From: a virus
Strand: one strand, 5' to 3'
DNA: 30,988 nt
IMG/VR virus record: IMGVR_UViG_3300043420_001327
Span: 1 to 30,988 of that record
In this document: positions 1,767 to 20,187 of the stretch, in pieces
Layout of the letters: the number at the start of each line of letters is the position of its first letter
Numbering within the stretch: the stretch's first letter is position 1
Program-made: the position numbers and the translations under genes
The notes under the pieces: model-generated
The model's database searches: none
What the model was told of the DNA's origin: nothing
Seen by the model: the letters and a program-made list of their open reading frames with translations, nothing else

Positions 1767-4058
1767 ATGGCTAGAGGAAGACTTGCTAGTGTTACAATTC
1801 CACCTTATTCGTCGGGTAAAGTATACACGAATAGTTCTGGAAACGAAGCATCGGTTACTTTAAATACAGTAGTTTTGGACGCAACCGCTTGCTCAGAAAT
1901 TTCTGTAGGAATTAGTACATTTTCCAATTTAGAAACGAGCAATGTTAGCATTGCTCAAACATCATGTACTCCATGGTGTTGTATATCATCTTTTTCATAC
2001 TGTGCAGATTCTACATGTCAACTGTACTCTGGATATTATGCTAAACCAATTTGTACTGGATGCACTCCTTGTGTAACTGGTTGCTATTTTCCAAATTATG
2101 TCGATTCTTCTGGTAATGTAACTTCTTTTGTAAGCAGAAGAAGCGATGTGACGGTTTGTTGCCAGAACGTATGTTGGTGTATGTGTTGTCTATTCTATTG
2201 TAGTGGAAGTGCATCAAACTCTGTCAGTGGTTCTTGGTGCTACTTTACTACTGCTGTTGGTCTCTCAACAAATTTGACTTTTGATTCAACATTGACAAAT
2301 AGAAATGCTTACGAAAATCCAGAATTCTTATTGCAAAGTAATATTTGCACAACTTCAAATGGCAGTAAATTCCCGGTAATTTCTATTGATTGTAATGGAT
2401 GTGTTAATTACTTTAGTGACACTACTTTGACAACTCCAACTGCAAGAGCAAAGCATTTTATTAATTCAAAACATGCGGGGAGTTGTACACCAACTGGTTC
2501 AAGTTGTTTTCCATATTTTACTGCTGCAACTGATTATTGGTCAACCGAAAAAACAACAGTAGGAATATATGCGTTAAATTATACTAATGCTACGTTCTTT
2601 TGCAGAACAACCTATGAAGGTAATTGTGCATCCCTTCCTGATTGTGTAGTTACTTCTGCCGTTAATCTTTTGAATCCCAAGTGGGCATATACTTGGGTAG
2701 AAGGATCTACAGTTTGTAGTGCAAAAGTTTGTGACGCTTTTACTCCTTGTTGTTCTTGGTATACTGCCGGAGGGGCTTCTGGCACGATATCTGGGTGGTG
2801 CGGTCTTTGTTTTAATATGAGTAGTTGCTGTATATGTACAGTAGGAACTGGATGGGCATTCACCAATAGTACAAATATGTCCCCTTCCTTTAATGATTTT
2901 TCTACAACATATATTACAAATACTTGTACTATTGGTGAATCTGGCTTTGCATTGGCAACTTGTTCCGGCGCTTGTTGTATTGTAGCTTTTAATGGTTGCT
3001 CATTTACTCCAGCAATTACAAAGTATTTTGTAAATGAGTCTGGTCCTTCTGTTCTGGCTGGATGTAATATTTTCGCATATCAAAATACAATACCAGTTGC
3101 TGGTTCATGTTGTATCGTTGCTGTTGGATTTATTGCAGGTTGTGGGCAAACATTAAGAGATGTTTTATCTTGTGCTTGTAAACCAACTGTAGATTTGTGT
3201 GGATGCTGTACTGTTTGGGGATCTTACAATAGAACTTTTTCTTCCAAAGTATGTACTCCACCTTTTGATAGTTCTACAATGTGTTATATGCCAAATCCAG
3301 TAAAATGGATGACATATAATCCAAATACTTGTTGTAATTATTTTATGCTTCATGTTGGAACAATTGTATGCAGTTGCAATGTTCCATGTCAAAATGGAAT
3401 ATACTCAATTTGTCATCCAACAATTTGTAATGTAACTACAAGCTTGAGTTATTGCACTGGATGTTTTTGTTGCAATTGTCTAAAATATCCTGCCAGAGTT
3501 CATAGAGTAGCGGATGATTCTTCTGACTATGCCATATGTGACAATAATCCTTACACTATCTCATTTAGTGCTATCGGATATCTAGCTGGTTGTAATTTTT
3601 GCTGTAGTAGCGTATGTAGATATTCAACTGCATTTACTAGAGTTGGTTGTTTGCCATCTGAATTTACGAATTGCTGTTTCTATTGCTTCTGCCCTTCTCC
3701 ATTAATAAGAACTGGAGACTCTGAGTGGAAATTTGGTGTTTATGAGAATGGTACTTGGGTTGATTATGTTTCTTGCAACTTAACGTGTTGGCAAAGACAG
3801 TGTTCTTATTATGGAGGTACTGGGGGATTAATAGCACAAACACCTTATAATTTTACCCTAATATCATGTAATACTTGCATACTTCAAATATGCGAATGTT
3901 TTTATAATGTAATTTCCAATTCAGAATATTTGGATTACAGAGATAATGTGAATGCAGTCGAAAGAACCGGATTAGTATTATCTGACCAAGATAGCATTTA
4001 TGTATCAAATGGATCAAATCAAAATGTTTCTGTACAAGTTTGGGGGTATGAAGGATAA
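1767..4058 (+). CDS. Giant cysteine-rich putative tail adhesin (763 aa)
   Basis: I do not recognise a family. By hand count about 80 of 763 residues are cysteine, all between about residue 42 and residue 700, with about 12 CC pairs and motifs such as CTGCTPC and CWCMCC. The region is also rich in Ser, Thr, Asn, Tyr and Trp and poor in Lys. The N-terminus (MARGRLASVTIPPYSSGKVY) and C-terminus (SIYVSNGSNQNVSVQVWGYEG-like) lack cysteine and are closely matched by the 109-residue protein at 4366. The architecture is therefore two conserved ends around a huge cysteine-rich insert. No signal peptide or membrane segment is seen. A strong GGAGGA site lies 8 nt before the ATG. Its place between fibre genes and before a chaperone-like gene suggests a virion adhesin tip; the cysteines could form disulfides after lysis or bind metal. 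Role is inferred. Confidence 0.85.
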   Translation: MARGRLASVTIPPYSSGKVYTNSSGNEASVTLNTVVLDATACSEISVGISTFSNLETSNVSIAQTSCTPWCCISSFSYCADSTCQLYSGYYAKPICTGCTPCVTGCYFPNYVDSSGNVTSFVSRRSDVTVCCQNVCWCMCCLFYCSGSASNSVSGSWCYFTTAVGLSTNLTFDSTLTNRNAYENPEFLLQSNICTTSNGSKFPVISIDCNGCVNYFSDTTLTTPTARAKHFINSKHAGSCTPTGSSCFPYFTAATDYWSTEKTTVGIYALNYTNATFFCRTTYEGNCASLPDCVVTSAVNLLNPKWAYTWVEGSTVCSAKVCDAFTPCCSWYTAGGASGTISGWCGLCFNMSSCCICTVGTGWAFTNSTNMSPSFNDFSTTYITNTCTIGESGFALATCSGACCIVAFNGCSFTPAITKYFVNESGPSVLAGCNIFAYQNTIPVAGSCCIVAVGFIAGCGQTLRDVLSCACKPTVDLCGCCTVWGSYNRTFSSKVCTPPFDSSTMCYMPNPVKWMTYNPNTCCNYFMLHVGTIVCSCNVPCQNGIYSICHPTICNVTTSLSYCTGCFCCNCLKYPARVHRVADDSSDYAICDNNPYTISFSAIGYLAGCNFCCSSVCRYSTAFTRVGCLPSEFTNCCFYCFCPSPLIRTGDSEWKFGVYENGTWVDYVSCNLTCWQRQCSYYGGTGGLIAQTPYNFTLISCNTCILQICECFYNVISNSEYLDYRDNVNAVERTGLVLSDQDSIYVSNGSNQNVSVQVWGYEG

Positions 4059-4762: not shown

Positions 4763-5707
4763 ATGCCAAAAAGAAAAGTTTTTGCCATCGATGGTGGTGC
4801 GGGTAGAGTACTAGCAGCAATTCCTGCACTTGAAAAATATGCAAAAAAACATTCCGAAGACGACTGGGCAATTGTTGTTTTTGGGTGGGATGTTTTATTT
4901 TTTGGTAACACCCTTCTTCAGGATAGAGTTTTTAGTGCAGATGTAAAGGGAATATTTAATAATCTATTAAAAGACTCTGAAATAGTATCTCCAGAACCAT
5001 ATCGTCTTTGGGAATATTATAATCAAAAATGCTCTTTATCTGAAGGGTTTGATAAAATTATAAATGAGACTGATGATCATTCAGATTTAGGTAAACCAAA
5101 TATATACCTATCAAAATCTGAAGAGAAAATGGCAGCAAACATAATTGCTGACGTTAAGAGCAAGCAACAAAAGAAAACGACTATTGTAATTCAACCATTT
5201 GGCAGATCTGCTAAAGTTGATAATGGTGATGTTATTGATGAAAGTTCTCGTTCTTTGGAACCATTAGTTTATCTAGATCTTATCAAGAAACTTGGGCAAA
5301 AGTATAATATTATTTTAATGGCAGAACCAGAGTATTCTCAGGTTCTTAATGAGCATGACCAGATATCCTTCAAACTTCAATCTGACTTACGAGGGTGGTC
5401 ATCTATTATTGAAGCATCAGACTACTTTATTGGATGTGACAGTGTTGGGCAACATATGGCAAGAGCATTTGATAAACCTGGAACTGTTATTATGGGTTCA
5501 ACCTTTGCAGTAAATACAACGTATCCAGATTTCTTCCAAATTATTGAAAATGAAAATGTGGAAAAAGTTTATTCGCCTATTCGTATTTGTGGATTTGATT
5601 GCCACTTAGCAGATAGATTAAATGATACCTGTATGGATTTTGACAAAGAACATGTTGAAGAGATTTATAAGAAAATAGATGCACATATTAAGGAGAATGT
5701 AAAATGA
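4763..5707 (+). CDS. GT9-like (heptosyltransferase-type) glycosyltransferase 1
   Basis: This 314-residue protein has an N-terminal IDGGAGRVLAAIPALEKYA segment, placed like the glycine-rich start of GT-B enzymes. Its C-terminal half carries ASDYFIGCDSVGQHMARAFDKPGTVIMG when read across the motif, the pattern seen in glycosyltransferase family 9 (ADP-heptose:LPS heptosyltransferases), where D-S-G/V-x-x-H-x-A contacts the nucleotide sugar. It is about 30% identical by eye to the protein at 17468 and shares PEPY and TDDHSDL motifs with it. The 3' end overlaps the carbamoyltransferase by 4 nt (ATGA), so the two are translationally coupled. ADP-heptose enzymes lie just downstream, making ADP-heptose the likely donor; acceptor and exact activity are inferred. 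Confidence 0.65.
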   Translation: MPKRKVFAIDGGAGRVLAAIPALEKYAKKHSEDDWAIVVFGWDVLFFGNTLLQDRVFSADVKGIFNNLLKDSEIVSPEPYRLWEYYNQKCSLSEGFDKIINETDDHSDLGKPNIYLSKSEEKMAANIIADVKSKQQKKTTIVIQPFGRSAKVDNGDVIDESSRSLEPLVYLDLIKKLGQKYNIILMAEPEYSQVLNEHDQISFKLQSDLRGWSSIIEASDYFIGCDSVGQHMARAFDKPGTVIMGSTFAVNTTYPDFFQIIENENVEKVYSPIRICGFDCHLADRLNDTCMDFDKEHVEEIYKKIDAHIKENVK

Positions 5708-7470
5708 CTTATAACATCCTAGCAATTAATCCTGGACATAATGGTTCTGTCGCACTAGTATGTGATGGAAAACTAGAACTTTATATTGAGGAAGAAAGAC
5801 TTTCTCGTATGAAATATGATGGAAATCCTTTTCGAGGGATGATTCATATTTTAGAAAGGTATAAAATTGATGAATTTGTAATTGGTGGAACTGGACAAGA
5901 AGACCATAGACTTCCTTGGACGGGTGAAAGTTCTTATGTTGCTTTGGTTCGCAAGTATTATCCAGAAGTTAAGGTTCATTTACTAAATGGAGAACATCAT
6001 CATGGACATGCTTGCTCCGCATTTTATAATTCTGGATTTGAATCTGCTGCTGCAGTAATCGTAGATGGTTCTGGAAGTCGTCAGCAGGTAAGAATAAATC
6101 CATTTGGTGATAAACCAATAGACTATGAAGCATATGAAACTGAAACCATTTTGCACTGCAAATATCCAAATTCTTTTGAGAGGAAATATAAAAGATATTC
6201 GAATAATATCCTACCAAAAATAGAAGATAGGGGCAATTACTTAGATTGTGCTGTTACGACAGTGAAAGCATATGAAGCAGTAAGTTATTACCTTGGATTT
6301 GGATTTATTGAAGCTGGCAAAACTATGGGACTTGCTCCTTATGGTAAAGAAGATGAAAATATTCCTCAACTTCTAATTGGTGAGGATAAACGAGGTGATA
6401 AGAATATCTTCATTCCAAATTATCCAGCTGGTGCATTTATTGATGGAGCTAGATATCCTTATTTGGAACTTAAAAGAGACCCTGCAGAATGGCATAGAGA
6501 TCCATCTAAGTTGGATGACGCATCTAAAAATCTTGCATGGAAGATTCAAAAAGAAACGCAAGAATATGTTGGAGACTTAATTGATAAAGCGGTTTCTCTT
6601 ACTGGAGAAAAAAATATCGTTATCTCCGGTGGATATGGGTTGAATTGCGTTGCAAATTACTATTACAAGGAAAGATTCCCAGAGTTGAATATTTTTATTG
6701 ACCCAATTTCGCATGATGGGGGTAGTTCTATTGGTTTGGCTAAATTTTTCTGGTATGAATATTTGAGAATTAATCGCCTCGGAGATGAATATGGAATCAT
6801 TAGGGATCCTTTGACAACACTTTACTTGGGTATTTCTAGAGATTATGTTGAAGAAGATCTTGATAAATTTGATGATATTGAAGTTAGTGATGTGACGGCT
6901 GCTGATGTGGCAAAACTGATTCAAGATAGAAATATCGTATCTATTTTCCAAGGAAAGTGTGAGGCAGGTCCACGAGCACTTGGCAATCGCTCAATTCTTT
7001 ATGATCCAACAGACCCAAATGGAAAAGACTTTGTTAATACTGTGAAGGGTAGAGAGTGGTTTAGACCTTTTGCTGGTACTGTGCTCAAAGAACACGCGAG
7101 TGAATGGTTTGATCTTAGGGGAATGGAAGAAAGTCCTTTTATGATGTATGCCGCCGATCTTACAAGTAAAGCAATTGGAGAACTACCATCTATTACTCAC
7201 GTTGACGGTACTTGTAGGGTTCAGACTGTTACAAAAGAGCAAAACAAGCACTATTATGAATTAATAGATGAGTTTAGAAAACTAACAGGAGTTCCTGTAT
7301 TGTTTAATACAAGTTTTAATCTTGCAGGAGACCCACTTGTAGAAACTTTAGAGGATGCAATTCACACTCTTCGTGAAAGTGAATTAGAATATCTATATCT
7401 ACCAGAACTTAAAAAACTGATAAAGGTTGAGAATAGAGAAAAATCTATAGACCCAGAGGTTTTAGAGTAA
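5704..7470 (+). CDS. NodU/CmcH-family carbamoyltransferase 1
   Basis: This 588-residue protein has the full-length NodU/CmcH layout. The N-terminal Kae1-like domain shows AINPGHNGSVALV, EEERLSR, the metal-site motif HHHGHA (residues 98-103) and a DGSGS phosphate loop (121-125), then KTMGLAPYGK and ISGGYGLNCVAN. The C-terminal domain has GPRALGNRS, REWFRPFAG and FNTSFNLAGDP. These enzymes move a carbamoyl group from carbamoyl phosphate through a carbamoyl-AMP intermediate to a hydroxyl, often on a sugar. The gene is coupled to the GT9-like gene before it, so a transferred sugar is a likely acceptor. Its 3' end overlaps the convergent gmhB-like gene by 9 nt. A second family member is at 15777. 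Confidence 0.9.
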   Translation: MTYNILAINPGHNGSVALVCDGKLELYIEEERLSRMKYDGNPFRGMIHILERYKIDEFVIGGTGQEDHRLPWTGESSYVALVRKYYPEVKVHLLNGEHHHGHACSAFYNSGFESAAAVIVDGSGSRQQVRINPFGDKPIDYEAYETETILHCKYPNSFERKYKRYSNNILPKIEDRGNYLDCAVTTVKAYEAVSYYLGFGFIEAGKTMGLAPYGKEDENIPQLLIGEDKRGDKNIFIPNYPAGAFIDGARYPYLELKRDPAEWHRDPSKLDDASKNLAWKIQKETQEYVGDLIDKAVSLTGEKNIVISGGYGLNCVANYYYKERFPELNIFIDPISHDGGSSIGLAKFFWYEYLRINRLGDEYGIIRDPLTTLYLGISRDYVEEDLDKFDDIEVSDVTAADVAKLIQDRNIVSIFQGKCEAGPRALGNRSILYDPTDPNGKDFVNTVKGREWFRPFAGTVLKEHASEWFDLRGMEESPFMMYAADLTSKAIGELPSITHVDGTCRVQTVTKEQNKHYYELIDEFRKLTGVPVLFNTSFNLAGDPLVETLEDAIHTLRESELEYLYLPELKKLIKVENREKSIDPEVLE

Positions 7471-8088
7471 AGTATTTGCAAAATCAAAAAGGGTGTCAAA
7501 TATTTTGACATCCTTATATTTTGGATTAAAAGACTTTAAATATTTTTCTTCTGTTGCTAAACCTTTTCCTGTTCTCACTAAAACGGGAGTGGCTCCTATT
7601 TTGAGTGCCATCTTGATATCATCTATAGTATCGCCAACATAATATCCTTTATCAAACTCTACTTGCAATTCATTTTGTGCTCTATTCAACATTCCTATGT
7701 TTGGCTTAGCAAATATATCCTGATGATTATCTGATTGATTGAAGTAGAATCCATCAATACTAAAGATTCCATTTTGTCCAAACATTTGCATCATGTGGTT
7801 CATGACATTACTAACTTCAGCACTTGTCAAAAGACCCCTACTAATGTTAGGTTGGTCAGAGAATAAGACAACTCTATATCCACTAAGTCTTAAATTTCTA
7901 ATTGCTTGAAGAGATCCATTTATAAATTCTACATCTTCGTATCTTTTTATTATACTTTTCCACTCATTTATTACTCCGTCTCTATCAATCCCAATCACAC
8001 ATTTTGGAAATTCTGTAGGCCAATCGTTAGGATCGTACTGTTGCTGTTGCTGCTCGGCAAAAAATTGTTTTGTTTGATATCTACCCAT
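7462..8088 (-). CDS. gmhB: GmhB-like heptose-1,7-bisphosphate phosphatase
   Basis: This 208-residue HAD phosphatase shows GIDRDGVIN (catalytic Asp35 and Asp37), then FSDQPNISRG, KPNIGML and GDTIDDIKMALKIGATPVLV. Order and wording match GmhB/HisB-N phosphatases, which remove the C7 phosphate of heptose 1,7-bisphosphate. Compared with E. coli GmhB, the zinc loop (CxH...CxC before KPHPGML) is missing: DGFYFNQSDNHQDIFAKPN has no cysteine. There is a 28-residue N-terminal extension with a glutamine run. The gene is divergent from the HldC/HldA pair, across only 40 bp. Substrate is inferred from the neighbouring heptose genes; a different sugar bisphosphate is possible. Confidence 0.75.
   Translation of the reverse strand: MGRYQTKQFFAEQQQQQYDPNDWPTEFPKCVIGIDRDGVINEWKSIIKRYEDVEFINGSLQAIRNLRLSGYRVVLFSDQPNISRGLLTSAEVSNVMNHMMQMFGQNGIFSIDGFYFNQSDNHQDIFAKPNIGMLNRAQNELQVEFDKGYYVGDTIDDIKMALKIGATPVLVRTGKGLATEEKYLKSFNPKYKDVKIFDTLFDFANTLL
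7491..7513. terminator. Candidate bidirectional terminator hairpin
   Basis: GGGTGTCAAA-tat-TTTGACATCC forms a 10-bp stem with one G-U pair. On the minus strand it is followed by TTTTTGATTTT; on the plus strand by TTATATTTT. It lies inside the 3' end of gmhB and just past the convergent carbamoyltransferase, the right place to stop transcripts from both sides. It is also coding sequence, so chance cannot be excluded. Confidence 0.45.
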
Positions 8089-8118
8089 AATTATTTTAAA
8101 ATTTCATATCAGTGTTAC

Positions 8119-8124
8119 ATTATA
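8119..8124 (-). promoter_or_regulatory. Candidate gmhB -10 box (TATAAT on minus strand)
   Basis: The minus strand of the 40-bp divergent gap carries TATAAT about 30 nt before the gmhB ATG. The -35 region at 17 nt spacing reads TTGTAC, a weak match. On the plus strand only TATATT directly against the ATG at 8129 is seen, so a separate promoter for the HldC gene is unclear. Confidence 0.35.
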
Positions 8125-8128
8125 TATT

Positions 8129-8545
8129 ATGACAGAAAAAAGTACAAAAAAAGTATTTGTTAATGGAACATTTGATGTTTTGCATCGCGGACATCTAATG
8201 CTATTAAACTATGCGAAAAGTTTGGGCGACTATCTTATTGTTGGTATAGATAGTGATGCCAGAGTAAAAGAGAAGAAAGGTTCATCAAGACCAGTAAACA
8301 GTGCAGAGGAAAGATCTTTTATGCTGATGAATTTGAAATCAGTGGATGAAGTTCGTTTCTTTGGAACTGATAAAGAACTTGAAAACTTAGTAAAATCCAT
8401 AAAACCTGATATAATGGTGGTAGGAAGTGATTGGAAAGATAAATCTGTTATTGGTTCTTACTATTCTTCAAATCTCATATTCTATGATAGGATAAATGAC
8501 TACTCAACAACAAAAATCGTACAAAGTATTATTGATAGGGGATAG
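8129..8545 (+). CDS. hldC: Heptose-1-phosphate adenylyltransferase (HldE C-domain type)
   Basis: This 138-residue protein matches the C-terminal half of E. coli HldE in order: FVNGTFDVLHRGH (nucleotidyltransferase HxGH-type site), LGDYLIVGIDSDARVKEKKG, SSRPVNSAEER, VDEVRFFG, KPDIMVVGSDW and YSTTKIVQ. The family joins heptose 1-phosphate and ATP to give ADP-D-glycero-beta-D-manno-heptose. As a stand-alone protein it corresponds to HldC of species with split genes. No strong Shine-Dalgarno precedes the ATG. The downstream kinase gene starts 50 nt before its stop, in another frame. A different nucleotidyl acceptor (glycerol-3-phosphate type) is less likely, given the RPVNSAEER segment and neighbours. 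Confidence 0.85.
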   Translation: MTEKSTKKVFVNGTFDVLHRGHLMLLNYAKSLGDYLIVGIDSDARVKEKKGSSRPVNSAEERSFMLMNLKSVDEVRFFGTDKELENLVKSIKPDIMVVGSDWKDKSVIGSYYSSNLIFYDRINDYSTTKIVQSIIDRG

Positions 8546-9248
8546 TTGTACCGATCGTTATATCTATGGTGAAGTAAAGAGATTAAACCCTGAAGCACCA
8601 GTTCCCATTCTTGAGTATAAAAGAACTGAAATACGTCATGGTATGGCATGGAATGTTTATAACAATCTAAAAGCATTTGATTTGGATGTTTATATGCTAA
8701 CCAATGAAGAAAAGATAATAAAAACTAGATATATTGAAGAAAAAACAAATCAGCAGATTCTTAGATTGGATGAAGAGAAAAAAGTAAATCCAATACCTTA
8801 TAATATTCCAGATGATAAGTATGATGCTGTTGTTATAAGTGACTATGATAAAGGATTTATAACCGCGTCGAAGTTATTTGAAATTGTTTATTCGTCTAAG
8901 TGTCCCGTCTTTATTGATACCAAAAAAACAGTTTTGCCAAAGTATAATTGTTTCATCAAAATCAACGACTTAGAATATTCAAAATTAACTGAAGAATATG
9001 ATAATGTTATCATAACTCGTGGAAGTAGTGGTGCTGAGTATGATGGGGTGTTATACCCAGGAGAAAAAGTGAATGTTTATGATGTGGTGGGTGCAGGCGA
9101 TACTTTTCTCGCTGCGCTCACTTTTGGGTATCTGAAGTTTGGTAATATACCAAAAGCCATTCAATTGGCAAATAAGGCAGCTGCGATAGCAGTTTCCAAT
9201 CAAGGAACTTATGTATTAACTAAAGAAGATGTCAGAAAACTCTATTAG
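8496..9248 (+). CDS. hldA: Heptose-7-phosphate kinase (HldE N-domain type, PfkB family)
   Basis: This 250-residue PfkB-family kinase matches the N-terminal half of HldE: GDSCTDRYIYGEVKRLNPEA near the start (HldE has GD..LDRY.YG...R.SPEAPVP), then RHGMAWNVYNNL, QQILRLDEE, VVISDYDKG, ITRGSSGAEY and the GAGD active site (199-202) in DVVGAGDTFLAALTFGY. It phosphorylates C1 of heptose 7-phosphate. At 250 residues it is shorter than the roughly 320 of HldE kinase domains, with losses in the lid region. The ATG at 8496 lies inside the upstream gene (50-nt overlap); no later ATG keeps the nucleotide-binding start, so the overlap is real. AGGA sits very close to the ATG. Confidence 0.85.
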   Translation: MTTQQQKSYKVLLIGDSCTDRYIYGEVKRLNPEAPVPILEYKRTEIRHGMAWNVYNNLKAFDLDVYMLTNEEKIIKTRYIEEKTNQQILRLDEEKKVNPIPYNIPDDKYDAVVISDYDKGFITASKLFEIVYSSKCPVFIDTKKTVLPKYNCFIKINDLEYSKLTEEYDNVIITRGSSGAEYDGVLYPGEKVNVYDVVGAGDTFLAALTFGYLKFGNIPKAIQLANKAAAIAVSNQGTYVLTKEDVRKLY

Positions 9249-9591
9249 ATTTGTTCCCAAAGGATGGGGATATGAAAAATGGATTGTCAATAATGAAGAA
9301 TATTGTGGCAAAATTCTTTATATTGTACAGGGGAAAAAATGCTCCTGGCATTATCACAATCTCAAGGATGAAACTTTTTATGTTCAGTCTGGATCTATAA
9401 AGTTACTATACTCTGAAGATGATAATATAGAACTTGCAAATATATGTTTCCTAAAAAAAGGTGACAAATTCCACGTTCATCGTGGTCTTCGTCACCAAAT
9501 GATTGCTCTTGAAGATACTGAGTTGTTTGAGTTTTCGACTCAGCACCTTGAGAGTGATAGTATTAGAGTTATCCGAGGAGATACTCTTTGA
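9229..9591 (+). CDS. Cupin protein, mannose-6-phosphate-isomerase-like
   Basis: This 120-residue single-domain cupin has both cupin motifs: WHYHNLKDETFYVQSG and HVHRGLRHQMIALED, followed by ELFEFSTQH. The histidines and glutamate of the first motif and the final histidine would bind a divalent metal. It begins with a PKGWGYEKW segment common in cupins fused to or resembling GDP-mannose pyrophosphorylase / phosphomannose isomerase type II. It overlaps the kinase gene by 20 nt and so belongs to the heptose operon. A role as sugar isomerase or epimerase is plausible; it could conceivably supply heptose-phosphate isomerisation, which is otherwise missing, but there is no direct support. Its 3' end overlaps the convergent hldD gene by 23 nt. 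Confidence 0.75.
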   Translation: MSENSIRFVPKGWGYEKWIVNNEEYCGKILYIVQGKKCSWHYHNLKDETFYVQSGSIKLLYSEDDNIELANICFLKKGDKFHVHRGLRHQMIALEDTELFEFSTQHLESDSIRVIRGDTL

Positions 9592-10363
9592 CCGACTTAA
9601 ACTTATAATCACCAATCCATTTCATATCAGCACAAGTATAGTTTTGATATCTGCCTTTAAGGTGTTCGGGGAAGTCGATATATTCGATTTCCCCTTTTTC
9701 TTTTTCTGCAACCAACTCCGCAACTTCTTGAAAACTAATTGGAGTACCAGTTCCCAAATCATAAATTCCCGATGGTTGCTGATTATAAAGAACAACATTT
9801 ACAATATCATCTACAGAAATAAAATCTCTTAAAAACTTATTAGAACCTTTGAATAGTTTTAGTTTGCCAGTTTCACGTATTTGTTTTGTAAACTTTGAGA
9901 CTGGACTTGCTTGGTCTTCTTTATGCTCTTCACCATTCCCATATACGTTAAAGTATCTAAACCCCTGAATATTGGAAAACTTATCTAGGTTATCTTGCAC
10001 AAAGTAATCTACTTGAAGTTTGGTTATTGCATAGTAATTTAATGGGTTGATTACTTTTGTCTTTTTTGTTTGATTTCCATACACCGATGCAGATGATGCA
10101 TACTTTACTGGTATACCATAATGAATTGCTTTTTCAAATAGAAACAGTGAAAATACAACATTATAGTGATGTAGTATTCTAATGTCCTTCTCTATCGTTG
10201 ATGATATTGCCCCCTGATGAATTATTAATGATACTTCATCCCATCTATCAAATCCACTTATAAAGCGAAATGCATTCTCTTTTTCTATTTTAACGATTGG
10301 TTCATTCAGTTTCGATATGAAATTTTTACCAATAAATCCATCCGAACCAGTTAATATTATCAT
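9569..10363 (-). CDS. hldD: ADP-glycero-manno-heptose 6-epimerase
   Basis: This is a 264-residue extended short-chain dehydrogenase/reductase. The NAD(P)-binding start is ILTGSDGFIG (GxxGxxG). Family-specific segments follow: HQGAISST, YASSASVYGNQ (active Ser/Thr region), YYAITK (Tyr-x-x-x-Lys), GFRYFNVYGNGEEHK, LKLFKGSNKFLRDF and IEYIDFPEHLKGRYQNYT. These match E. coli HldD closely in order, so substrate assignment is stronger than for most phage epimerases. The enzyme converts ADP-D,D-heptose to ADP-L,D-heptose. I place the start at 10363 because the glycine-rich motif begins at residue 6 there; an upstream in-frame ATG at 10432 would add 23 residues overlapping its own promoter. Confidence 0.9.
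   Translation of the reverse strand: MIILTGSDGFIGKNFISKLNEPIVKIEKENAFRFISGFDRWDEVSLIIHQGAISSTIEKDIRILHHYNVVFSLFLFEKAIHYGIPVKYASSASVYGNQTKKTKVINPLNYYAITKLQVDYFVQDNLDKFSNIQGFRYFNVYGNGEEHKEDQASPVSKFTKQIRETGKLKLFKGSNKFLRDFISVDDIVNVVLYNQQPSGIYDLGTGTPISFQEVAELVAEKEKGEIEYIDFPEHLKGRYQNYTCADMKWIGDYKFKSVKEYLLG
9668..9705 (+). terminator. Rho-independent terminator embedded in hldD
   Basis: GGGGAAGTCGA-tatat-TCGATTTCCCC makes an 11-bp stem with one G-U pair, followed directly by TTTTTCTTTTT. It points along the plus strand, about 80 nt past the cupin stop, so it would end the hldC-hldA-cupin transcript. The same bases code for EKEKGEIEYIDFP in hldD on the other strand. The minus-strand side has no T-run, so hldD transcription should not stop there. 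Confidence 0.75.
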
Positions 10364-11229: not shown

Positions 11230-12495
11230 ATGGAAAATTTGCAGAGGTTTTTCAGTAATTCTAAAAGTACAAGCACAAAACTTAATAGAAGGATTATGTA
11301 TGGTCCTTCTAATGAACTTTGGCCAGTACCACAAGGAACAACAGAAGTAGAAGTTCATGTGTGGGGCGGTGGAGGTTCTTCGTGTAGATTATGTTTTTCA
11401 CCTCCTTCATCTGGTGGGGCAGCAGGCGCAGGAGGGGGTGGAGGATATGCTCGTGCTAGATATTCTGTAACGTCCACTGATTGTCTTTGTATTACTGTTG
11501 GTGGTAATGGTGGAACTTCCTCTGTTACTATTGCAACTCAAAGTCCAACATCACCAGTAAGTGCTACTGGTGGAGGTAATGCTACTTGTGTTCCCGGATC
11601 TCCTTGTGGATCTGTTGATGGTGGTGTAGGTGGAAGTGGTTCAGTTTCTTTGGGACCCACCCATTCAACTACATATTGTTTTACAGCATCTGGTGGAAAT
11701 GGCGTTGGTGCATCTTCTTATCCTACTACTCCTGGACCAGCTCCATCTGTATGTCGATGTGGAGGAGGAGGAGGAGCTGCTGGATCTCCTAGAGGTAATG
11801 GTGGTGATGGAGGATTGTCGAAAAATACAAATGAACCTGGTCCATCAGTGATATATGGAGCAGGTGGATCTATAGGTCTTGGTACAGCATATACTTTAGC
11901 TGTAGATGGACTTGATAATGGATGTAAGGCTTATATAGTTTATGGTGGATCATCAGATACCCGAAATGGATTTAATTACGATAATGTTGTTAATGAATCA
12001 AGTTGTTGTTATCCACTAAATTTTGGTGGTAGTTGTCCCAACTGCTCTGTATTTAGAAGTATGATATCGTTTGGGTATCCACACTCATATGTAACTGCAG
12101 GAAAATTTGGCGCATATACTAATCCAGTAAGTCCTGGTCAGGTTTCTTATGGGTATACGACAGATATAAACGTAAGAAATATTGATTCTTGGTTTTATGT
12201 TGAAGATATTCCTGGATATGGTGCAGTTTCTCATTTGGGGTGTGGTTCATTTTGTCCAAATGTTGCAGCAGTTAGAGTTGCCTTTAATGCTCAAGATGGT
12301 GGTGGTGGAACGCAGAACTTTCCTGCAGGTCTTTTAGGTGGTGGAGGCGGTGGAATTATTCCTGGAACTTGTGGATGCTATACGACATATGCTGGATGCG
12401 CTGGTGGGAGTGGAAGTGTTAATGCTTCAAATCAATGTTGCTATACTTCAACTTCTATTCCGGGAACTCCTGGTGTAGTAATCATTTATTGGTAA
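11230..12495 (+). CDS. Gly-rich, Cys-rich tail adhesin A1
   Basis: This 421-residue protein has the entry motif WPVPQGTTEVEVHVWGGGG, typical of phage Gly-rich domain proteins (Gly_rich_2-like), followed by many polyglycine runs (GGAAGAGGGGGYARARY). It ends in GTPGVVIIYW. Such proteins resemble the polyglycine-layered receptor-binding tips of T4-type phages. Unusually it has about 21 cysteines in pairs such as CC, CxC and CPNC. It is 43-bp identical over its entry motif to its tandem paralogue at 12511. Start follows the fibre stop by one base, with GGAGG supplied by the fibre's own last codons. It is probably a host-range determinant. Confidence 0.85.
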   Translation: MENLQRFFSNSKSTSTKLNRRIMYGPSNELWPVPQGTTEVEVHVWGGGGSSCRLCFSPPSSGGAAGAGGGGGYARARYSVTSTDCLCITVGGNGGTSSVTIATQSPTSPVSATGGGNATCVPGSPCGSVDGGVGGSGSVSLGPTHSTTYCFTASGGNGVGASSYPTTPGPAPSVCRCGGGGGAAGSPRGNGGDGGLSKNTNEPGPSVIYGAGGSIGLGTAYTLAVDGLDNGCKAYIVYGGSSDTRNGFNYDNVVNESSCCYPLNFGGSCPNCSVFRSMISFGYPHSYVTAGKFGAYTNPVSPGQVSYGYTTDINVRNIDSWFYVEDIPGYGAVSHLGCGSFCPNVAAVRVAFNAQDGGGGTQNFPAGLLGGGGGGIIPGTCGCYTTYAGCAGGSGSVNASNQCCYTSTSIPGTPGVVIIYW

Positions 12496-12510
12496 TCGGA
12501 GGTAATTTAA

Positions 12511-13779
12511 GTGTCAAATTTTTCTCAGTTTTTTCCAAGTTCTATTCCAGCAGAACAAATACTTACTATATCAACTCCTGGAAATAAAAGGAATCGTCAA
12601 ATTTTTTATGGACCATCTGTTGAATCTTGGACAGTACCACAAGGAACAACAGAAGTAGAAGTTCATGTGTGGGGTGGTGGTGGAGGTGGTAATGGAACTT
12701 TTTGCACAGGATCTGGTGGTGGAGGAGGATATGCTCGTACAAGATATAAAGTAAGTTCGTCGGACATCTTATGTGTTACCGTTGGTGGTAATGGTGGAAC
12801 TTCATCAGTTACTATTCCAACTCAATCGCCAATATCACCTATGAGTGCTACTGGTGGAAGCAATTCTCCATCACTAGATCCTGCATGTTGTGTATGTTGC
12901 AGTCTTCCATCACCGAGTGGTGATACTGGAGGATGTGGATGTATTTCAGGTGGTGCTGGTGGGAGTGGTTCAGTTTCTTTGGGACCTTTACATCCAAGAA
13001 GTTATTGTTTTGTCGCTTCTGGTGGAACTGGTGGTTGTGGTTCTTATTGTTGTTTTTTGGCAGGTTCTACTCATCCATTTCCGAACGCAACTGGATTTGC
13101 AGCTGCTTCTAAAGGAGGAGGAGCTGCTGGATCTCCAAGAGGTAATGGTATAGATTCTGCAGTAGTTTGTCACGCATTCACTTTAACGACAGTTCCCAAT
13201 CAAAATATGAGTGGTGGTGGAGGATCTGGTATAGGTGGATATGGTTTATGTCATGGTGGAGGTAGCAAATCTAGTGCTTATGATTCGCCTGGATCTGCTA
13301 CTTCTTGCTTACTTGGTCCAGTTAGTGTTGCTGGAATGGGTGCAAGAGTAAGTTATACCACATGTGTTGCAGGACCATCTCCGGCAGGATGTGTTGCATT
13401 AGTAAATCATTTCAAATTAGCTGATTGTAGAGATGATACTTGGTTTTCTGTCGAGGATATTGGTGGTGTAGGTGGATTGAGTTTTGGTCTAAAATCGATA
13501 GCACAAAGTATGAGTCAAAATGGAGGAACTGGTGCTGGTGGGGGAGGATCAACTTTACTGCAAATACTTAGCCCCAATCCATCAGTATGGTGTGCTGGAT
13601 CGTGCGGAAATAGTTTTCCGGCAGGAAATGGTGGATTATTGGGAGGAGGAGGTGGACATACTGTAAGATGTTCATCAGTAGATGGATTTATTCAATCTAA
13701 TGGTGGTTATGGTGGTTGTGCTGGTGGATCTGGTGGAAACACACCGGGAACCCCAGGTGTTGTTATAATTTACTGGTAA
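12511..13779 (+). CDS. Gly-rich, Cys-rich tail adhesin A2
   Basis: This 422-residue protein starts with GTG (MSNFSQFFPSS) behind a CGGAGGT site. The SQFFPS opening recurs in the adhesins at 20801 and 26076, while the middle (WTVPQGTTEVEVHVWGGGG) and end (TPGVVIIYW) match the upstream adhesin A1, so it looks like a hybrid of both types. It has about 22 cysteines (ACCVCC, GGCGCIS, SYCCF) among glycine loops. Tandem duplication with divergent central loops suggests two alternative receptor tips, or two subunits of one tip. TAA is followed by an AAGGAGG site for the next gene. Confidence 0.85.
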   Translation: MSNFSQFFPSSIPAEQILTISTPGNKRNRQIFYGPSVESWTVPQGTTEVEVHVWGGGGGGNGTFCTGSGGGGGYARTRYKVSSSDILCVTVGGNGGTSSVTIPTQSPISPMSATGGSNSPSLDPACCVCCSLPSPSGDTGGCGCISGGAGGSGSVSLGPLHPRSYCFVASGGTGGCGSYCCFLAGSTHPFPNATGFAAASKGGGAAGSPRGNGIDSAVVCHAFTLTTVPNQNMSGGGGSGIGGYGLCHGGGSKSSAYDSPGSATSCLLGPVSVAGMGARVSYTTCVAGPSPAGCVALVNHFKLADCRDDTWFSVEDIGGVGGLSFGLKSIAQSMSQNGGTGAGGGGSTLLQILSPNPSVWCAGSCGNSFPAGNGGLLGGGGGHTVRCSSVDGFIQSNGGYGGCAGGSGGNTPGTPGVVIIYW

Positions 13780-15776: not shown

Positions 15777-17468
15777 ATGATTACACTTGGGCTTTATGGA
15801 GCTTTTGATTGGAGAGCTGATAAATCTTTTAACGAGTTTGGAGAGACTACATGGGTACATGATGCTGGTGCTACTTTATTTGTGAAGGGTAAACATGTAT
15901 GCTCCATTTCTGAAGAGAGATTATCTCGTCTAAAGCATGATGGAAATTTTCCAATTAGATCAATTGGATATTGTATGGATGTTGGAAATATTTCTCCAGA
16001 AGATGTTGATGTTGTTTGTGTTCCTTCCATGTGTCTCAGTATCTTCTATAAGAAGTGGTATGAGGGGACTATTCAAAAAATTATTTCAGGAATCTTTCCT
16101 AATGCAAAACTCAAACTTGTATCTCACCACTTAAGTCATGCGGCAGCAGCGGTCTTTTCTTCTGACTTCAATGAAGGTTCTTTTCTAACTCTTGATGGTG
16201 CAGGTTCTCTTACTTTCAATCAAGATCTTTCTAGAACCTACATGGCAGAAACCAATTCAATTGGTTACTTTAATAAAGATAAAGGTATCTTCCGATTCTT
16301 TAATGGTATTTCTGGAGCAAATAATTTTGGTGGTTTCTACCATGGACTTTCTCATCACATCTATTGTGAAAAAATTCAAAAACAAATTGATGGATATGAT
16401 GAAAAGTATCGGGAAACTTGGGATGGAAAAATCATGGGACTTTCTGCATATGGATGCTCATTAGATTTTTCTGAACGCCATAAACTTTACAGGATGTCAA
16501 AAGACCTTTGTTATGATGATATCCCATATGTTTCTTTTGCAGAAAATCCTGCTGAAGCATTTAAGTTTACAAATGCAGATGAAAAGGCATATATTCTTCA
16601 AAAGAATTTTGAACTTGCTCTATTGGATTATGTAACTGAACTTAAAGATAATTCTTATCTTGAAGATAACATTTGTCTCTCTGGCGGATCTTTCTTGAAT
16701 GTTCTTGGTAATAGTGTTCTGAAGCAGAGTGGATTGTTTAAAGGAATTCACGTTCCTCCTTGCCCCAATGATGTCGGTTTGCACTTTGGTGCTGCTTGCT
16801 TTGCTCAGTTTAAAAATGGCGAAACCATCAAACTTCCAGATAATATTGCTCTTTTGGGTAGAGAATATACTGAAGAAGAAATTGAATATGCTCTGAAAGA
16901 TAATCAAGTTAACTACGAAAAGTATGATAACTTTGATGAACTTTGTGAGTTCACTGCTTTACAGTTGAATGACAATAAAATTATTGGATGGTTCCAAAAT
17001 CGTTCTGAGTTTGGTCCCAGAGCACTTGGATCTCGTTCACTTCTAATGCATCCTGGTCCTGCTGAAAATAAGGATATTGTGAATGAAAGAGTTAAGCATC
17101 GTGAATATTGGAGACCATTTGCAGGTATTATTCTTGAGGAGCATTTAAATGAATACTTTGAAGAAGATTTCAATTCTCCCTACATGCTATACTCTCTTAC
17201 AGTCAAAGAAGACAAAAGAGGCGAAATTGGGGCAATTACTCACAAAGATAACACTTGCCGTATTCAAACAGTAAATGCTAAAATGAATACACAAGTGAAC
17301 ACTTTGATTGAGAAATTCAAGGAAGTATCTGGTATCCCAGTACTTCTAAATACATCATTCAATGATAATGGTGAACCTATTGTCGAATCACCACAAGATG
17401 CAGTAAAGTCCTTTAAAAATATGGACATCGATTATCTTGTGATTGGAAACTTTATTGTAAGGAAGTAA
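15777..17468 (+). CDS. NodU/CmcH-family carbamoyltransferase 2
   Basis: This 563-residue protein is full length for the family. It shows ISEERLSRLKHDG, the metal motif HHLSHA (117-122), LDGAGS (139-144), KIMGLSAYG, ICLSGGSFLNVLGN, GPRALGSRS, REYWRPFAG and LNTSFNDNGEPIV. It is clearly diverged from the enzyme at 5704, with a 30-residue N-terminal variation (YGAFDWRADKSFNEFGETTW) before the usual HDAGATL motif, so the copies are unlikely to be a recent duplication. It overlaps the next GT9-like gene by 1 nt. The pair mirrors the one at 4763-7470 in reverse order. Confidence 0.9.
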   Translation: MITLGLYGAFDWRADKSFNEFGETTWVHDAGATLFVKGKHVCSISEERLSRLKHDGNFPIRSIGYCMDVGNISPEDVDVVCVPSMCLSIFYKKWYEGTIQKIISGIFPNAKLKLVSHHLSHAAAAVFSSDFNEGSFLTLDGAGSLTFNQDLSRTYMAETNSIGYFNKDKGIFRFFNGISGANNFGGFYHGLSHHIYCEKIQKQIDGYDEKYRETWDGKIMGLSAYGCSLDFSERHKLYRMSKDLCYDDIPYVSFAENPAEAFKFTNADEKAYILQKNFELALLDYVTELKDNSYLEDNICLSGGSFLNVLGNSVLKQSGLFKGIHVPPCPNDVGLHFGAACFAQFKNGETIKLPDNIALLGREYTEEEIEYALKDNQVNYEKYDNFDELCEFTALQLNDNKIIGWFQNRSEFGPRALGSRSLLMHPGPAENKDIVNERVKHREYWRPFAGIILEEHLNEYFEEDFNSPYMLYSLTVKEDKRGEIGAITHKDNTCRIQTVNAKMNTQVNTLIEKFKEVSGIPVLLNTSFNDNGEPIVESPQDAVKSFKNMDIDYLVIGNFIVRK

Positions 17469-18448
17469 TGAAAACTATTATTAACATCGATGGTGGATTG
17501 GGTCGTATTATTGCAGCAATTCCTGCACTTCTCAAGTATGGAAAACTTCATCCAGAAGAAGATTGGTATGTTATGATTCCTGCTTGGGATATTATGACTT
17601 GGGGTATTCCAGAACTTCAGGCAAGAACATTCAATCCAGAGACTAAAGGAATGTTTGAGAACTATTATTGGGATGCAGATAAGGTTATTGCCCCTGAGCC
17701 ATATAAACTTCCCGCATTCTATCGTAATGAAATTTCTATGCGAGAAGCATTTGATAAACTAATTAATAATACTGATGACCATAGCGATCTTCCTGATTTA
17801 ACTCTTAAGTTGAGTCTCGATGAGATTATTCGTGCTAAGGAAATTATTAAGAGTGTTAAAAAGGAAAGCAATAAAAAAGTAATTGTATTTCAACCTTATG
17901 GAAGCACATCTCAAGCAACTGAGATGGGCATCTATGATAAAAGTATGAGGTCAATTACCCATTATATGGTAAATAAACTTTGTGAAAAGTTGACTAAAGA
18001 CTACATCGTTATTACGATGAATGATTGGTGTCAAGAAGAAGGTTTAGTAGCACTACGCCCTGACCCCGATCTTCGTACTTGGGCTGCTATCATTCAAGAA
18101 GCAGATTACTTTATTGGTTGTGATAGTTGTGGTCAGCATATGGCAAAAGCAGTTGGAACTCCTGCTTCTGTTGTGATTGCAGGAACTCATGAAGTAAATA
18201 TGTCATATCCAGATACCTTCCATATTATTAAGCGTGAAGGTGTTAAGTATTATCCTGGTCCTATGAGAGTTTCTAACATCAACTCTATGTTGACTGAGAA
18301 ACTGAATGAAGAAAGAAACGCTTTTACCGATGATGAGATTAACACGGCTTACAAAGAAATTGTAAAACGTATTTCCAGAACAGGAAAAGTAGAAACCAAA
18401 ACAACTGAAGTAAAAGAAGAGAAAAAAGAAAATAAGGGATTTAGTTGA
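17468..18448 (+). CDS. GT9-like glycosyltransferase 2
   Basis: This 326-residue paralogue of the protein at 4763 shares IDGGLGRIIAAIPALLKYG, PEPYKL, TDDHSDL and ADYFIGCDSCGQHMAKAVG. The last of these is the GT9-type nucleotide-sugar site with His in the H-x-A position. It ends in a charged Lys/Glu tail of about 20 residues that the first copy lacks. The ATG overlaps the carbamoyltransferase stop (TAATG), and its own TGA overlaps the next ATG, so at least three genes are translated as a chain. It likely transfers a sugar that is then carbamoylated; donor inferred from the heptose genes in island 1. Confidence 0.65.
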   Translation: MKTIINIDGGLGRIIAAIPALLKYGKLHPEEDWYVMIPAWDIMTWGIPELQARTFNPETKGMFENYYWDADKVIAPEPYKLPAFYRNEISMREAFDKLINNTDDHSDLPDLTLKLSLDEIIRAKEIIKSVKKESNKKVIVFQPYGSTSQATEMGIYDKSMRSITHYMVNKLCEKLTKDYIVITMNDWCQEEGLVALRPDPDLRTWAAIIQEADYFIGCDSCGQHMAKAVGTPASVVIAGTHEVNMSYPDTFHIIKREGVKYYPGPMRVSNINSMLTEKLNEERNAFTDDEINTAYKEIVKRISRTGKVETKTTEVKEEKKENKGFS

Positions 18449-18807
18449 TGAATCTACCTCTGGTTCCAATTTCTGTTGGAGAATTGCTTGATAAAATCAC
18501 AATTCTCCAAATTAAATCTGAACATACTGACAACCAGTATGTTCATAAAGAACTTAATGACTTGATTAAAATTGCCAAAGATATGGGAGTTTATAAACAA
18601 GAATATCTAAGCGATTTATTGGCAGTAAATCGAAATCTATGGAATATTGAAGATCGTCTTCGTGAACTTGAAAACTTATGGAGATTTGATGATGAGTTTA
18701 TAGATCTTGCAAGACAGGTTTATACTACAAACGATAAAAGAGCGGCAGTCAAAAAACAAATAAACATAGAAACTCAATCAGAATATCAAGAGGTAAAAAT
18801 ATACTAA
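18448..18807 (+). CDS. DUF6165 family protein
   Basis: This 119-residue protein opens with MNLPLVPISVGELLDKITIL, the signature of DUF6165, a family of unknown function often found beside glycosyltransferase and sulfotransferase genes. It is mostly helical and charged, with RNLWNIEDRLRELENLW suggesting a coiled coil. I use ATG 18448, which overlaps the upstream TGA, rather than TTG 18445. It overlaps the sulfotransferase gene by 1 nt. A structural partner or specificity subunit for the neighbouring transferases is possible; no catalytic residue is evident. Confidence 0.8.
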   Translation: MNLPLVPISVGELLDKITILQIKSEHTDNQYVHKELNDLIKIAKDMGVYKQEYLSDLLAVNRNLWNIEDRLRELENLWRFDDEFIDLARQVYTTNDKRAAVKKQINIETQSEYQEVKIY

Positions 18808-19628
18808 TGACTTTACTTCCATTAACTAGTCTTCCAAGAAGTGGATCCACTCTTTTGATGTCTATTTTGGGGCAAAATCAAAAGTTTCATCTGGGAGATG
18901 ATTCTGAACTTGGAAATTTATTGAATCATAATAAGCAATTTATGATTGATAATATACACCATTTTCAGTTACCACATGAAGTTGCTTCAGAATGTTTTTA
19001 TGAATTTTGTCGCAAAGGATCTGATGCTTGGATTTCTAATATAATGCCTGAAGGCAAGATATTTTTGGATAAGTCGAGACACTGGCTAAAAGATTTAGAT
19101 TATTTTTTTAACGTATTTCCAGATATAAAAATAATTATTAATATTAGAGATTTGAGAGGTATTGTAAACTCTTTTGAAAAAATTCACAACAATTCACTAT
19201 TCATCGATAGAAATAGTTTTTATAATCAGTTGAATTTTGATTTGCAGCTGCAAAGAGTCAATAATATTTTAAACTTTGGTTATCTGAAAGACGGACTTAT
19301 TTCTCTTAAGGAAATTATAGATATTCCTAAAAGATATAAGGATAGAATTTTTATTTGTAAGTACGAAAAACTTTTAGAAGATCCTGTTGAAGAGATTGGA
19401 AAAATATATGAGTTCTTAGAATTGCCAGTCTATAAACATAATTTTGATGAGATAGAACAAGAACCTTATAATGATAACCCATATCAACCTTATGGTTGCC
19501 ATAAAATAAAACCAAAAGTTGAAAGATACGTAGAAAATTTTTCAAACTTGAGACCAGACATATCTGATATGATTATAAATGAATATAAATGGTATTATGA
19601 TATTTTCTATAGAGAAGTAATTGACTAA
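18807..19628 (+). CDS. Sulfotransferase
   Basis: This 273-residue protein has the PAPS 5'-phosphosulfate loop LPRSGSTLLMSIL near residue 9, a 3'-phosphate-binding-type strand IIINIRDLRGIVNSFEKIHN near residue 110, and the C-terminal KYEKLLEDPVEEIGKIYEFL segment that many sulfotransferases carry. The family moves sulfate from PAPS to a hydroxyl or amine, commonly on sugars or proteins. It starts within the upstream stop (TAATG). In this cluster a sugar made or moved by the neighbouring enzymes is the natural candidate, but the acceptor cannot be read from sequence. Confidence 0.85.
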   Translation: MTLLPLTSLPRSGSTLLMSILGQNQKFHLGDDSELGNLLNHNKQFMIDNIHHFQLPHEVASECFYEFCRKGSDAWISNIMPEGKIFLDKSRHWLKDLDYFFNVFPDIKIIINIRDLRGIVNSFEKIHNNSLFIDRNSFYNQLNFDLQLQRVNNILNFGYLKDGLISLKEIIDIPKRYKDRIFICKYEKLLEDPVEEIGKIYEFLELPVYKHNFDEIEQEPYNDNPYQPYGCHKIKPKVERYVENFSNLRPDISDMIINEYKWYYDIFYREVID

Positions 19629-19629
19629 T

Positions 19630-20187
19630 ATGTTTAAAAAAGTAAATTCAGATTTTCCCATCTTTATTTGGGATAATTTTTTAACTATAGACAACCAAAC
19701 AAGGACAGACCTGATGGGGATAGTTCTTGAAAATAAAAAGAGGAATCATCATGGAGTAGGTGGTAGTTTTAAAATTGACTACGATCCTACTTCTTTTTTT
19801 GCAGAGTTATACTCAAAGTTTTTTGAAGTTACTTATAATTTCTTTGGAGGATTGGATATACTTCCAAATAATTCAAGTATGTGTTGGTCTTATAGTAGTA
19901 ATGATATTGATCATGGACCAGGAATGATTCATAATCATATAAACACTTCAACCATTAACTCAGTATATTATCTTAATGTTCCAGATTCTGCAACGATTGA
20001 AAACGGTTCTATTCAGTTTTTTATGGACGATAAAACATTTTCGTATCGTCCAAATAGATATGACCTTGTTATCTTTCCAAATTATTTAAGTCATCGTATC
20101 AATTATTTGAAAGATTCCGAATATAGAATTTCAATTAACATGGAAATTCTATGCAATAATGACCCTCGTGTTCTTTTTTATAAATAA
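19630..20187 (+). CDS. 2OG-Fe(II) oxygenase 3 (PF13759-like)
   Basis: This 185-residue protein matches the putative 2OG-Fe(II) oxygenase family common in marine phages. It has IHNHINTSTINSVYYLNVPD, with His101 and His103 where most families have HxD, then RYDLVIFPNYLSHRIN with His155, and YRISINMEI with Arg166 for 2-oxoglutarate. I choose ATG 19630 over TTG 19621, because 19621 would overlap the sulfotransferase by 8 nt. It closes island 2, and its stop codon sits inside a perfect TATAAATA late promoter. Confidence 0.8.
   Translation: MFKKVNSDFPIFIWDNFLTIDNQTRTDLMGIVLENKKRNHHGVGGSFKIDYDPTSFFAELYSKFFEVTYNFFGGLDILPNNSSMCWSYSSNDIDHGPGMIHNHINTSTINSVYYLNVPDSATIENGSIQFFMDDKTFSYRPNRYDLVIFPNYLSHRINYLKDSEYRISINMEILCNNDPRVLFYK
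20179..20186 (+). promoter_or_regulatory. Late promoter TATAAATA
   Basis: This is an exact match to the T4 late promoter core, overlapping the TAA stop of the last island 2 gene. It lies 26 nt before the ATG of the module B fibre, with AGGAG in between. Confidence 0.65.

Follow-up and report, generated by a model that had tools for sequence, protein, structure and literature searches.

A cyanophage heptose cassette with a cupin as candidate sedoheptulose-7-phosphate isomerase

Gene content of the cassette and its relatives

The stretch of DNA analyzed here (the window) covers the 31 kb (30,988 nucleotides) of IMG/VR virus record IMGVR_UViG_3300043420_001327 and represents a fragment of a cyanomyovirus-like phage. 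Between positions 4763 and 10363, flanked by fiber-like genes, it carries a cassette of seven open reading frames (ORFs), all confirmed and intact, that includes genes related to ADP-heptose synthesis and a small cupin, our candidate for the isomerase of the pathway. The products, with lengths in amino acids (aa) and E-values of profile matches, are as follows.

4763..5707, + strand: GT9-fold glycosyltransferase, candidate heptosyltransferase (phrog_8954); 314 aa; predicted fold, weak TIGR02201/RfaQ match
5704..7470, + strand: NodU/WapO-type carbamoyltransferase; 588 aa; PF16861 1.5e-60, PF02543 2.4e-18; phrog_1601 2e-156
7462..8088, - strand: GmhB-family HAD phosphatase (heptose-1,7-bisphosphate 7-phosphatase); 208 aa; PRK08942 2.4e-34
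8129..8545, + strand: HldC-type heptose-1-phosphate adenylyltransferase; 138 aa; TIGR02199 3.5e-35
8496..9248, + strand: HldA-type heptose-7-phosphate kinase; 250 aa; TIGR02198 1.1e-42
9229..9591, + strand: cupin (phrog_7851, labelled cysteine dioxygenase); 120 aa; proposed sedoheptulose-7-phosphate isomerase
9569..10363, - strand: HldD-type ADP-heptose 6-epimerase; 264 aa; NCBIfam TIGR02197 4.3e-64

The overlaps among hldC, hldA, and the cupin gene (50 bases for hldC/hldA and 20 bases for hldA/cupin) suggest a single transcriptional unit with coupled translation. The HldD gene is convergent with the cupin gene and overlaps it.

When the island was compared with annotated phages using blastn, 59 records matched, all of them cyanophages or marine single-cell viruses, and much the same gene order is found in P-SSM2, S-CAM1, S-CAM3, and Sf-FS3. 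The island is not singular; it is a widespread cyanomyovirus cassette of an already known type, noted before as a set of linked lipopolysaccharide (LPS) genes (PMC3037559), in which the isomerase step was previously unexplained. Given that similar cassettes occur in dozens of phages, origin by chance is excluded. Sullivan et al. (2010) described seven co-occurring LPS gene clusters, including T4-GCs 304, 305, 307, and 308, as perhaps functionally linked (PMC3037559); in the P-SSM2 annotation, these four correspond to hldC, hldA, the cupin gene, and hldD. Heptose genes have also been reported in SynMITS9220M01 (PMC7378029).

The cassettes of P-SSM2 (PSSM2_307-313), S-CAM1, S-CAM3, and S-SSM7 lie among fiber genes and consist of a GT9-like gene, a carbamoyltransferase gene, hldC, hldA, a HAD gene, the cupin gene, and hldD on the minus strand, whereas the window contains a minus-strand GmhB-family phosphatase and has no small HAD gene separating hldA from the cupin gene. 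What is unusual about the window is its GmhB gene. In the relatives, genes of the GmhB type accompany the GT9/carbamoyltransferase pair: all 10 loci adjoin a carbamoyltransferase gene, and nearly all include the window-type GT9 gene. Because the window has a GmhB-family gene and no small HAD, GmhB probably performs the 7-phosphatase step alone here. The GmhB loci with a visible cassette also retain the small HAD, which weakens the possibility of a one-for-one swap between the two phosphatases. As a separate observation, the HldC annotated in the S-CAM3 record is a fragment of just 42 aa (L001:9158-9286); the open frame is longer, and this is probably a gene-calling error.

Family assignment of the heptose enzymes

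As originally predicted, the island encodes proteins for four of the five steps of the ADP-heptose pathway, with HldA, GmhB, HldC, and HldD assigned by family membership from both the ORFs and the family profiles. The best PDB match of HldD is the ADP-heptose 6-epimerase HldD (1eq2, 1.4e-43). The profile of the phage HldA family matches HldA 4e84 with 105 bits, the next match being ribokinase at 42, and the runner-up to TIGR02199 for HldC is glycerol-3-P cytidylyltransferase (1.6e-18). For GmhB, the best PDB matches are the D,D-heptose 1,7-bisphosphate phosphatases 3l8e/2gmw. The profile searches that had been proposed as a check on the kinase and the adenylyltransferase thus return heptose families first (TIGR02198 and TIGR02199), and neither protein is placed in a non-heptose family. 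The catalytic motifs are kept in HldA (GAGDT, RLDEE, and NQQ), HldC (NGTFDxLHxGH), HldD (YxxxK and LKGRYQ), and GmhB (DxDG and GDTxDD); the Zn-binding Cys loop of the E. coli GmhB is apparently absent from the window protein. The initial description of HldD and both halves of HldE as matching their families along the whole chain stands except for HldA, whose 250 aa align with the 315-position model only in three blocks. Compared with the complete pathway, the phage set lacks GmhA, encodes the two halves of HldE as separate HldC and short HldA proteins, and includes the cupin as the only conserved extra gene.

None of these enzymes reaches the NCBIfam equivalog cut-offs, so that they are best described as divergent members of their families. 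Together with the shortened HldA, the proximity of the phage HldC profile to cytidylyltransferases in the PDB, and the lack of HldD in some cassettes, these sub-threshold scores are what might be expected if the HldA/HldC/HldD-like enzymes had shifted substrate and produced a different activated sugar, with no heptose made. We consider such a shift improbable: the best match of HldD, HldA, and GmhB is in each case the heptose enzyme, with other families far behind, HldC matches TIGR02199 first, the fold of the GT9-like protein matches ADP-heptose transferases first, and the agreement of four independent families is hard to explain otherwise.

The isomerase step and the cupin

No gene for a SIS-type GmhA was detected in the 31 kb window with PF13580 or TIGR00441, in agreement with the original prediction. 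PF13580, which covers GmhA and matched the control genomes, also found nothing in 99 of the 100 cassette-bearing virus records, 6 of which are complete cyanophage genomes; the records searched in full include P-SSM2, S-CAM1, S-CAM3, Sf-FS3, and Bellamy. The sole positive record, with a weak match, is SynMITS9220M01, where a real SIS gene belongs to a separate module that also encodes a GHMP kinase and a fusion of a HAD protein with a nucleotidyltransferase; contig L096 carries the same module. Strict exclusion of the cupin and GmhA at the genome level is therefore rejected, since both these genomes hold both proteins, and exclusion applies per module only. In its full extent, the module comprises the GHMP kinase, the SIS isomerase, the HAD-nucleotidyltransferase fusion, and an SDR gene (L218:467-2666 in SynMITS9220M01; L096:9258-11438).

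The annotated 'phosphoheptose isomerase' of P-SSM2 and relatives was considered as a GmhA and rejected: it is a HAD protein of 106-114 aa with no SIS match. This family, phrog_1238, displays the motifs DxDGT, TAR, GKP, and DD, and its profile has HAD-type structures (1xpj and 9iqw) as the best PDB matches. The 'phosphoheptose isomerase' label carried by phrog_1238 in RefSeq and PHROGs is wrong; the family is a small HAD phosphatase. Its members occur across 385 phage records, among them those of coliphages and Acinetobacter phages, and many of these records bear the label (examples are PSSM2_311, at L002:14012-14356, and L001:9976-10296).

With GmhA missing, the original prediction named the cupin as a candidate stand-in, and the linkage of this gene to two kinds of heptose kinase greatly strengthens that proposal. 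Among 158 distinct viral cupins, 146 are located within 5 kb of a heptose-7-phosphate kinase, HldA in 125 cases and HddA in 21; about half of the 12 that are near neither kinase are cut by contig ends. HddA was assigned with NF049969 (3e-85) and HddC with NF049965 (2e-16). All 20 of the viral HddA loci that are untruncated have the cupin gene directly downstream of HddA, in some cases with the small HAD intervening, and in most of them HddC comes after the cupin gene. In INPHARED, no cyanophage record has HldA but lacks the cupin; where the cupin occurs in the absence of HldA (SynMITS9220M01, Bellamy, and AG-345-E15), HddA is present. HldA and HddA, a GHMP kinase, have unrelated folds and belong to the ADP and GDP pathways, respectively; the isomerase and 7-phosphatase reactions are the only steps that these pathways have in common. 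The genes common to the HldA and HddA modules are the cupin and the small HAD. Because the cupin is linked to two unrelated kinases whose pathways have only these steps in common, it most likely replaces GmhA as the sedoheptulose-7-phosphate isomerase. A parallel is provided by the GDP-heptose operon of Campylobacter jejuni, in which gmhA lies between hddC and hddA (Cj1423-1424-1425; PMC10680097): HddA and HddC also occur in the sister cyanophage modules, with the phage cupin in the place of gmhA.

The structural model of the cupin (predicted local distance difference test (pLDDT) 94.8) is a barrel with a three-His, one-Glu metal site. The metal-site residues H41, H43, E48, and H89 are invariant among 53 cupin sequences, as is K46, two residues before the metal ligand E48, within the common motif YCxKxL-G-C-HxHxxKxE. 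The cupin profile matches D-lyxose and L-ribose isomerases (E about 2e-3 against the PDB; PF07385 matches the P-SSM2 homolog weakly, 0.0027), and the fold relatives include the D-lyxose isomerases 7nzp/2y0o/3kmh and the archaeal phosphomannose isomerases 7zvy/7zvm. The fold, the metal ligands, and the HxHxxKxE spacing are shared with the cupin aldose-ketose isomerases acting on D-lyxose, L-ribose, and phosphomannose, from which the phage protein differs in its low identity (about 20%), its single short domain, and the proposed substrate, a heptulose phosphate. In the Thermofilum D-lyxose isomerase (TsLI), K86 and E88, the counterparts of K46 and E48 in the phage cupin, have been proposed to stabilize the intermediate and to act as a base (PMC8378251). 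No cupin heptose isomerase was found in our literature search. The PHROGs/RefSeq label of the cupin, 'cysteine dioxygenase', is not favored given the context of sugar metabolism genes.

Several observations weigh against the cupin as a heptose-pathway isomerase, beginning with the enzyme scores below the equivalog cut-offs. The E-values linking the cupin to isomerases are only about 2e-3, cupins are functionally diverse, and the fold comparison gives equally good scores to oxalate decarboxylase, CapF, KdgF, and cysteine dioxygenase. The cupin is located away from heptose kinases at L045, L233, L285, L286, L293, and L303, and lacks nearby heptose genes in contigs of metagenome-assembled genomes of Patescibacteria (L093 and L098) and Halobacteriovorax (L091). 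Conversely, the cupin is missing from seven HldA loci, all belonging to one subclade. Contigs L044, L048, and L060 (at least two of them independent) have two modules and a cupin-like gene in each, and SynMITS9220M01 and L096 contain the cupin along with the SIS protein of the other module. Some of the cupins distant from heptose genes are accompanied by GDP-mannose-type genes (L285 and, by inspection, L293); this context is also weakly compatible, after the fact, with a manno-type isomerase.

Some additional features of these atypical loci can be recorded. The bacterial proteins (L093:8222-8659, L098:9920-10327, and L091:9986-10348) are close homologs of the cupin, with 60-64% identity, and next to the one in L098 lie glycosyltransferase genes and a gene apparently of the UDP-glucose/GDP-mannose dehydrogenase type. 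In the phage contig L045 (5903-8155), the region upstream of the cupin encodes, by inspection, a fusion of a nucleotidyltransferase with RpiB and a transketolase in two pieces, an enzyme that would yield sedoheptulose 7-phosphate; a nucleotidyltransferase-RpiB fusion is present in SynMITS9220M01 as well (L115:1283-2437). The subclade without the cupin (L187, L188, L193, L196, L198, L199, and L203) has hldC and hldA but lacks the small HAD and HldD, and in L198, two minus-strand genes separate the carbamoyltransferase gene from hldC.

The occurrence of the cupin in clusters without heptose kinases would fit a different division of labor, whereby the phage makes ADP-heptose from heptose 7-phosphate supplied by a host SIS isomerase and the cupin modifies an NDP-sugar, for example by epimerization, or the finished glycan. 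Some cyanobacteria do have SIS_2 proteins, as indicated by the PF13580 match in S. elongatus, and Synechocystis sll0083 is annotated as a phosphoheptose isomerase (PMC3516471). However, S. elongatus is negative with the GmhA model TIGR00441, the LPS of marine Synechococcus is reportedly free of heptose (PMC4515613), and the kinases to which the cupin is tied belong to ADP and GDP pathways that have no common nucleotide-sugar chemistry. We regard host supply as rather unlikely and prefer the assignment of the cupin to the isomerase step.

Heptose transfer, selection, and host

The GT9-like transferase and the carbamoyltransferase originally placed beside the heptose genes are borne out by the fold and the domain matches, respectively. 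The sequence of the first GT9-like protein yields a weak match to TIGR02201 (0.0017), none to PF01075, and no significant match in a profile search of the PDB; its CDSVGQH block is GT9-like. Its AlphaFold model (pLDDT 89) retrieves WaaF 1psw (E 4e-9), GT9 3tov, WaaC 2gt1, and TibC 4rap as the top Foldseek matches in the PDB. The GT9 fold is common to TibC and the WaaC/WaaF ADP-heptose transferases, with 10-13% identity to the phage protein. TibC is a protein O-heptosyltransferase, and its presence among the top matches makes the fold compatible with either an LPS or a protein acceptor. On the strength of the modeled fold, the protein is a candidate ADP-heptose-using transferase. The carbamoyltransferase contains both the N- and C-terminal Carbam_trans domains (PF02543 and PF16861) of the NodU/TobZ/WapO family. 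Pseudomonas WapO is a putative carbamoyltransferase responsible for 7-O-carbamoylation of the core heptose (PMC8005017) and resembles the phage protein in superfamily and heptose context, which makes it a precedent for the carbamoyltransferase of the cassette.

A second pair of such genes is located further downstream in the window.

15777..17468, + strand: second NodU-type carbamoyltransferase; 563 aa; PF16861 5e-66, PF02543 3e-25
17468..18448, + strand: second GT9-like transferase; 326 aa; PF01075 Glyco_transf_9 2.9e-4, phrog_8954 8e-68

The second GT9-like protein, encoded directly 3' of the carbamoyltransferase, is 40% identical to the first and scores 20.7 bits with PF01075, below the cut-off of 22. 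The pair is followed, up to 20187, by genes for a DUF6165 protein, a sulfotransferase, and a 2OG-Fe(II) oxygenase, and another 2OG-Fe(II) oxygenase is encoded upstream, at 14396. The 15777-20187 region suggests a second glycan-decoration block and a larger glycan.

Taken together, these assignments outline a phage-encoded route from sedoheptulose 7-phosphate to ADP-manno-heptose, followed by heptose transfer and decoration, which we favor by a modest measure. The starting compound, sedoheptulose 7-phosphate, is formed in the host as an intermediate of the Calvin cycle and the pentose-phosphate pathway, and the cupin would isomerize it in place of GmhA. By family membership, HldA would then phosphorylate C1, the GmhB-type HAD would remove the 7-phosphate (in most relatives, the phrog_1238 small HAD would take over or share this step), HldC would add AMP, and HldD would epimerize C6. 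One or both of the GT9-fold proteins would transfer the heptose, as their fold suggests, and the carbamoyltransferase, by analogy with WapO, may carbamoylate the glycan.

In comparisons with several relatives, the raw ratio of non-synonymous to synonymous differences (pN/pS) is 0.15-0.66 in all seven genes, with pS near saturation; at the level of the sequences, all seven genes are under purifying selection. More than 100 contigs share the conserved gene order, overlaps, and catalytic motifs. Sullivan et al. left undecided whether cyanophage LPS genes are functional, and the variation of this gene class between phages, together with the possibility that the genes merely fill the headful during packaging, would be consistent with stuffer DNA or decaying acquisitions devoid of function, as considered in 2010 (PMC3037559). 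The non-synonymous differences, which fall far below the synonymous ones, and the conservation across contigs argue against stuffer DNA, which we deem very improbable.

Judging from the cyanophage relatives, the host is likely a cyanobacterium. Heptose is reported to be missing from the LPS of marine Synechococcus WH8102 and CC9311 and mostly from cyanobacterial LPS (PMC4515613), and has been reported in Spirulina LPS. The fiber-like genes around the cassette encode Ser/Thr-rich proteins (18-29% S+T), which makes virion fibers a reasonable target for heptose; a host surface glycan is likewise possible. Fiber-like proteins encoded at 1767-4058, 11230-13779, 20801-21823, and 26076-27113 are also unusually rich in cysteine, which accounts for 10.5% of a 763 aa protein and about 5% of four Gly-rich ones (20-25% Gly).

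We therefore propose, with the balance of probability about even, that the single-domain cupin of cyanophages represents a second, non-homologous class of sedoheptulose-7-phosphate isomerases that catalyzes the entry step shared by the ADP- and GDP-heptose modules and turns a Calvin-cycle intermediate into a sugar that the LPS of the host reportedly lacks. If so, a new isomerase class can be named, heptose synthesis by phages without gmhA is explained, and the old question of whether cyanophage LPS genes are functional or packaging filler becomes one of a pathway with a testable order of steps. The relabelling of phrog_1238 calls for a recheck of reports in which gmhA is listed among the common auxiliary genes of phages. 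If the heptose is real, carbon from the Calvin cycle of the infected cell would be linked to glycans of the virion or the cell surface.

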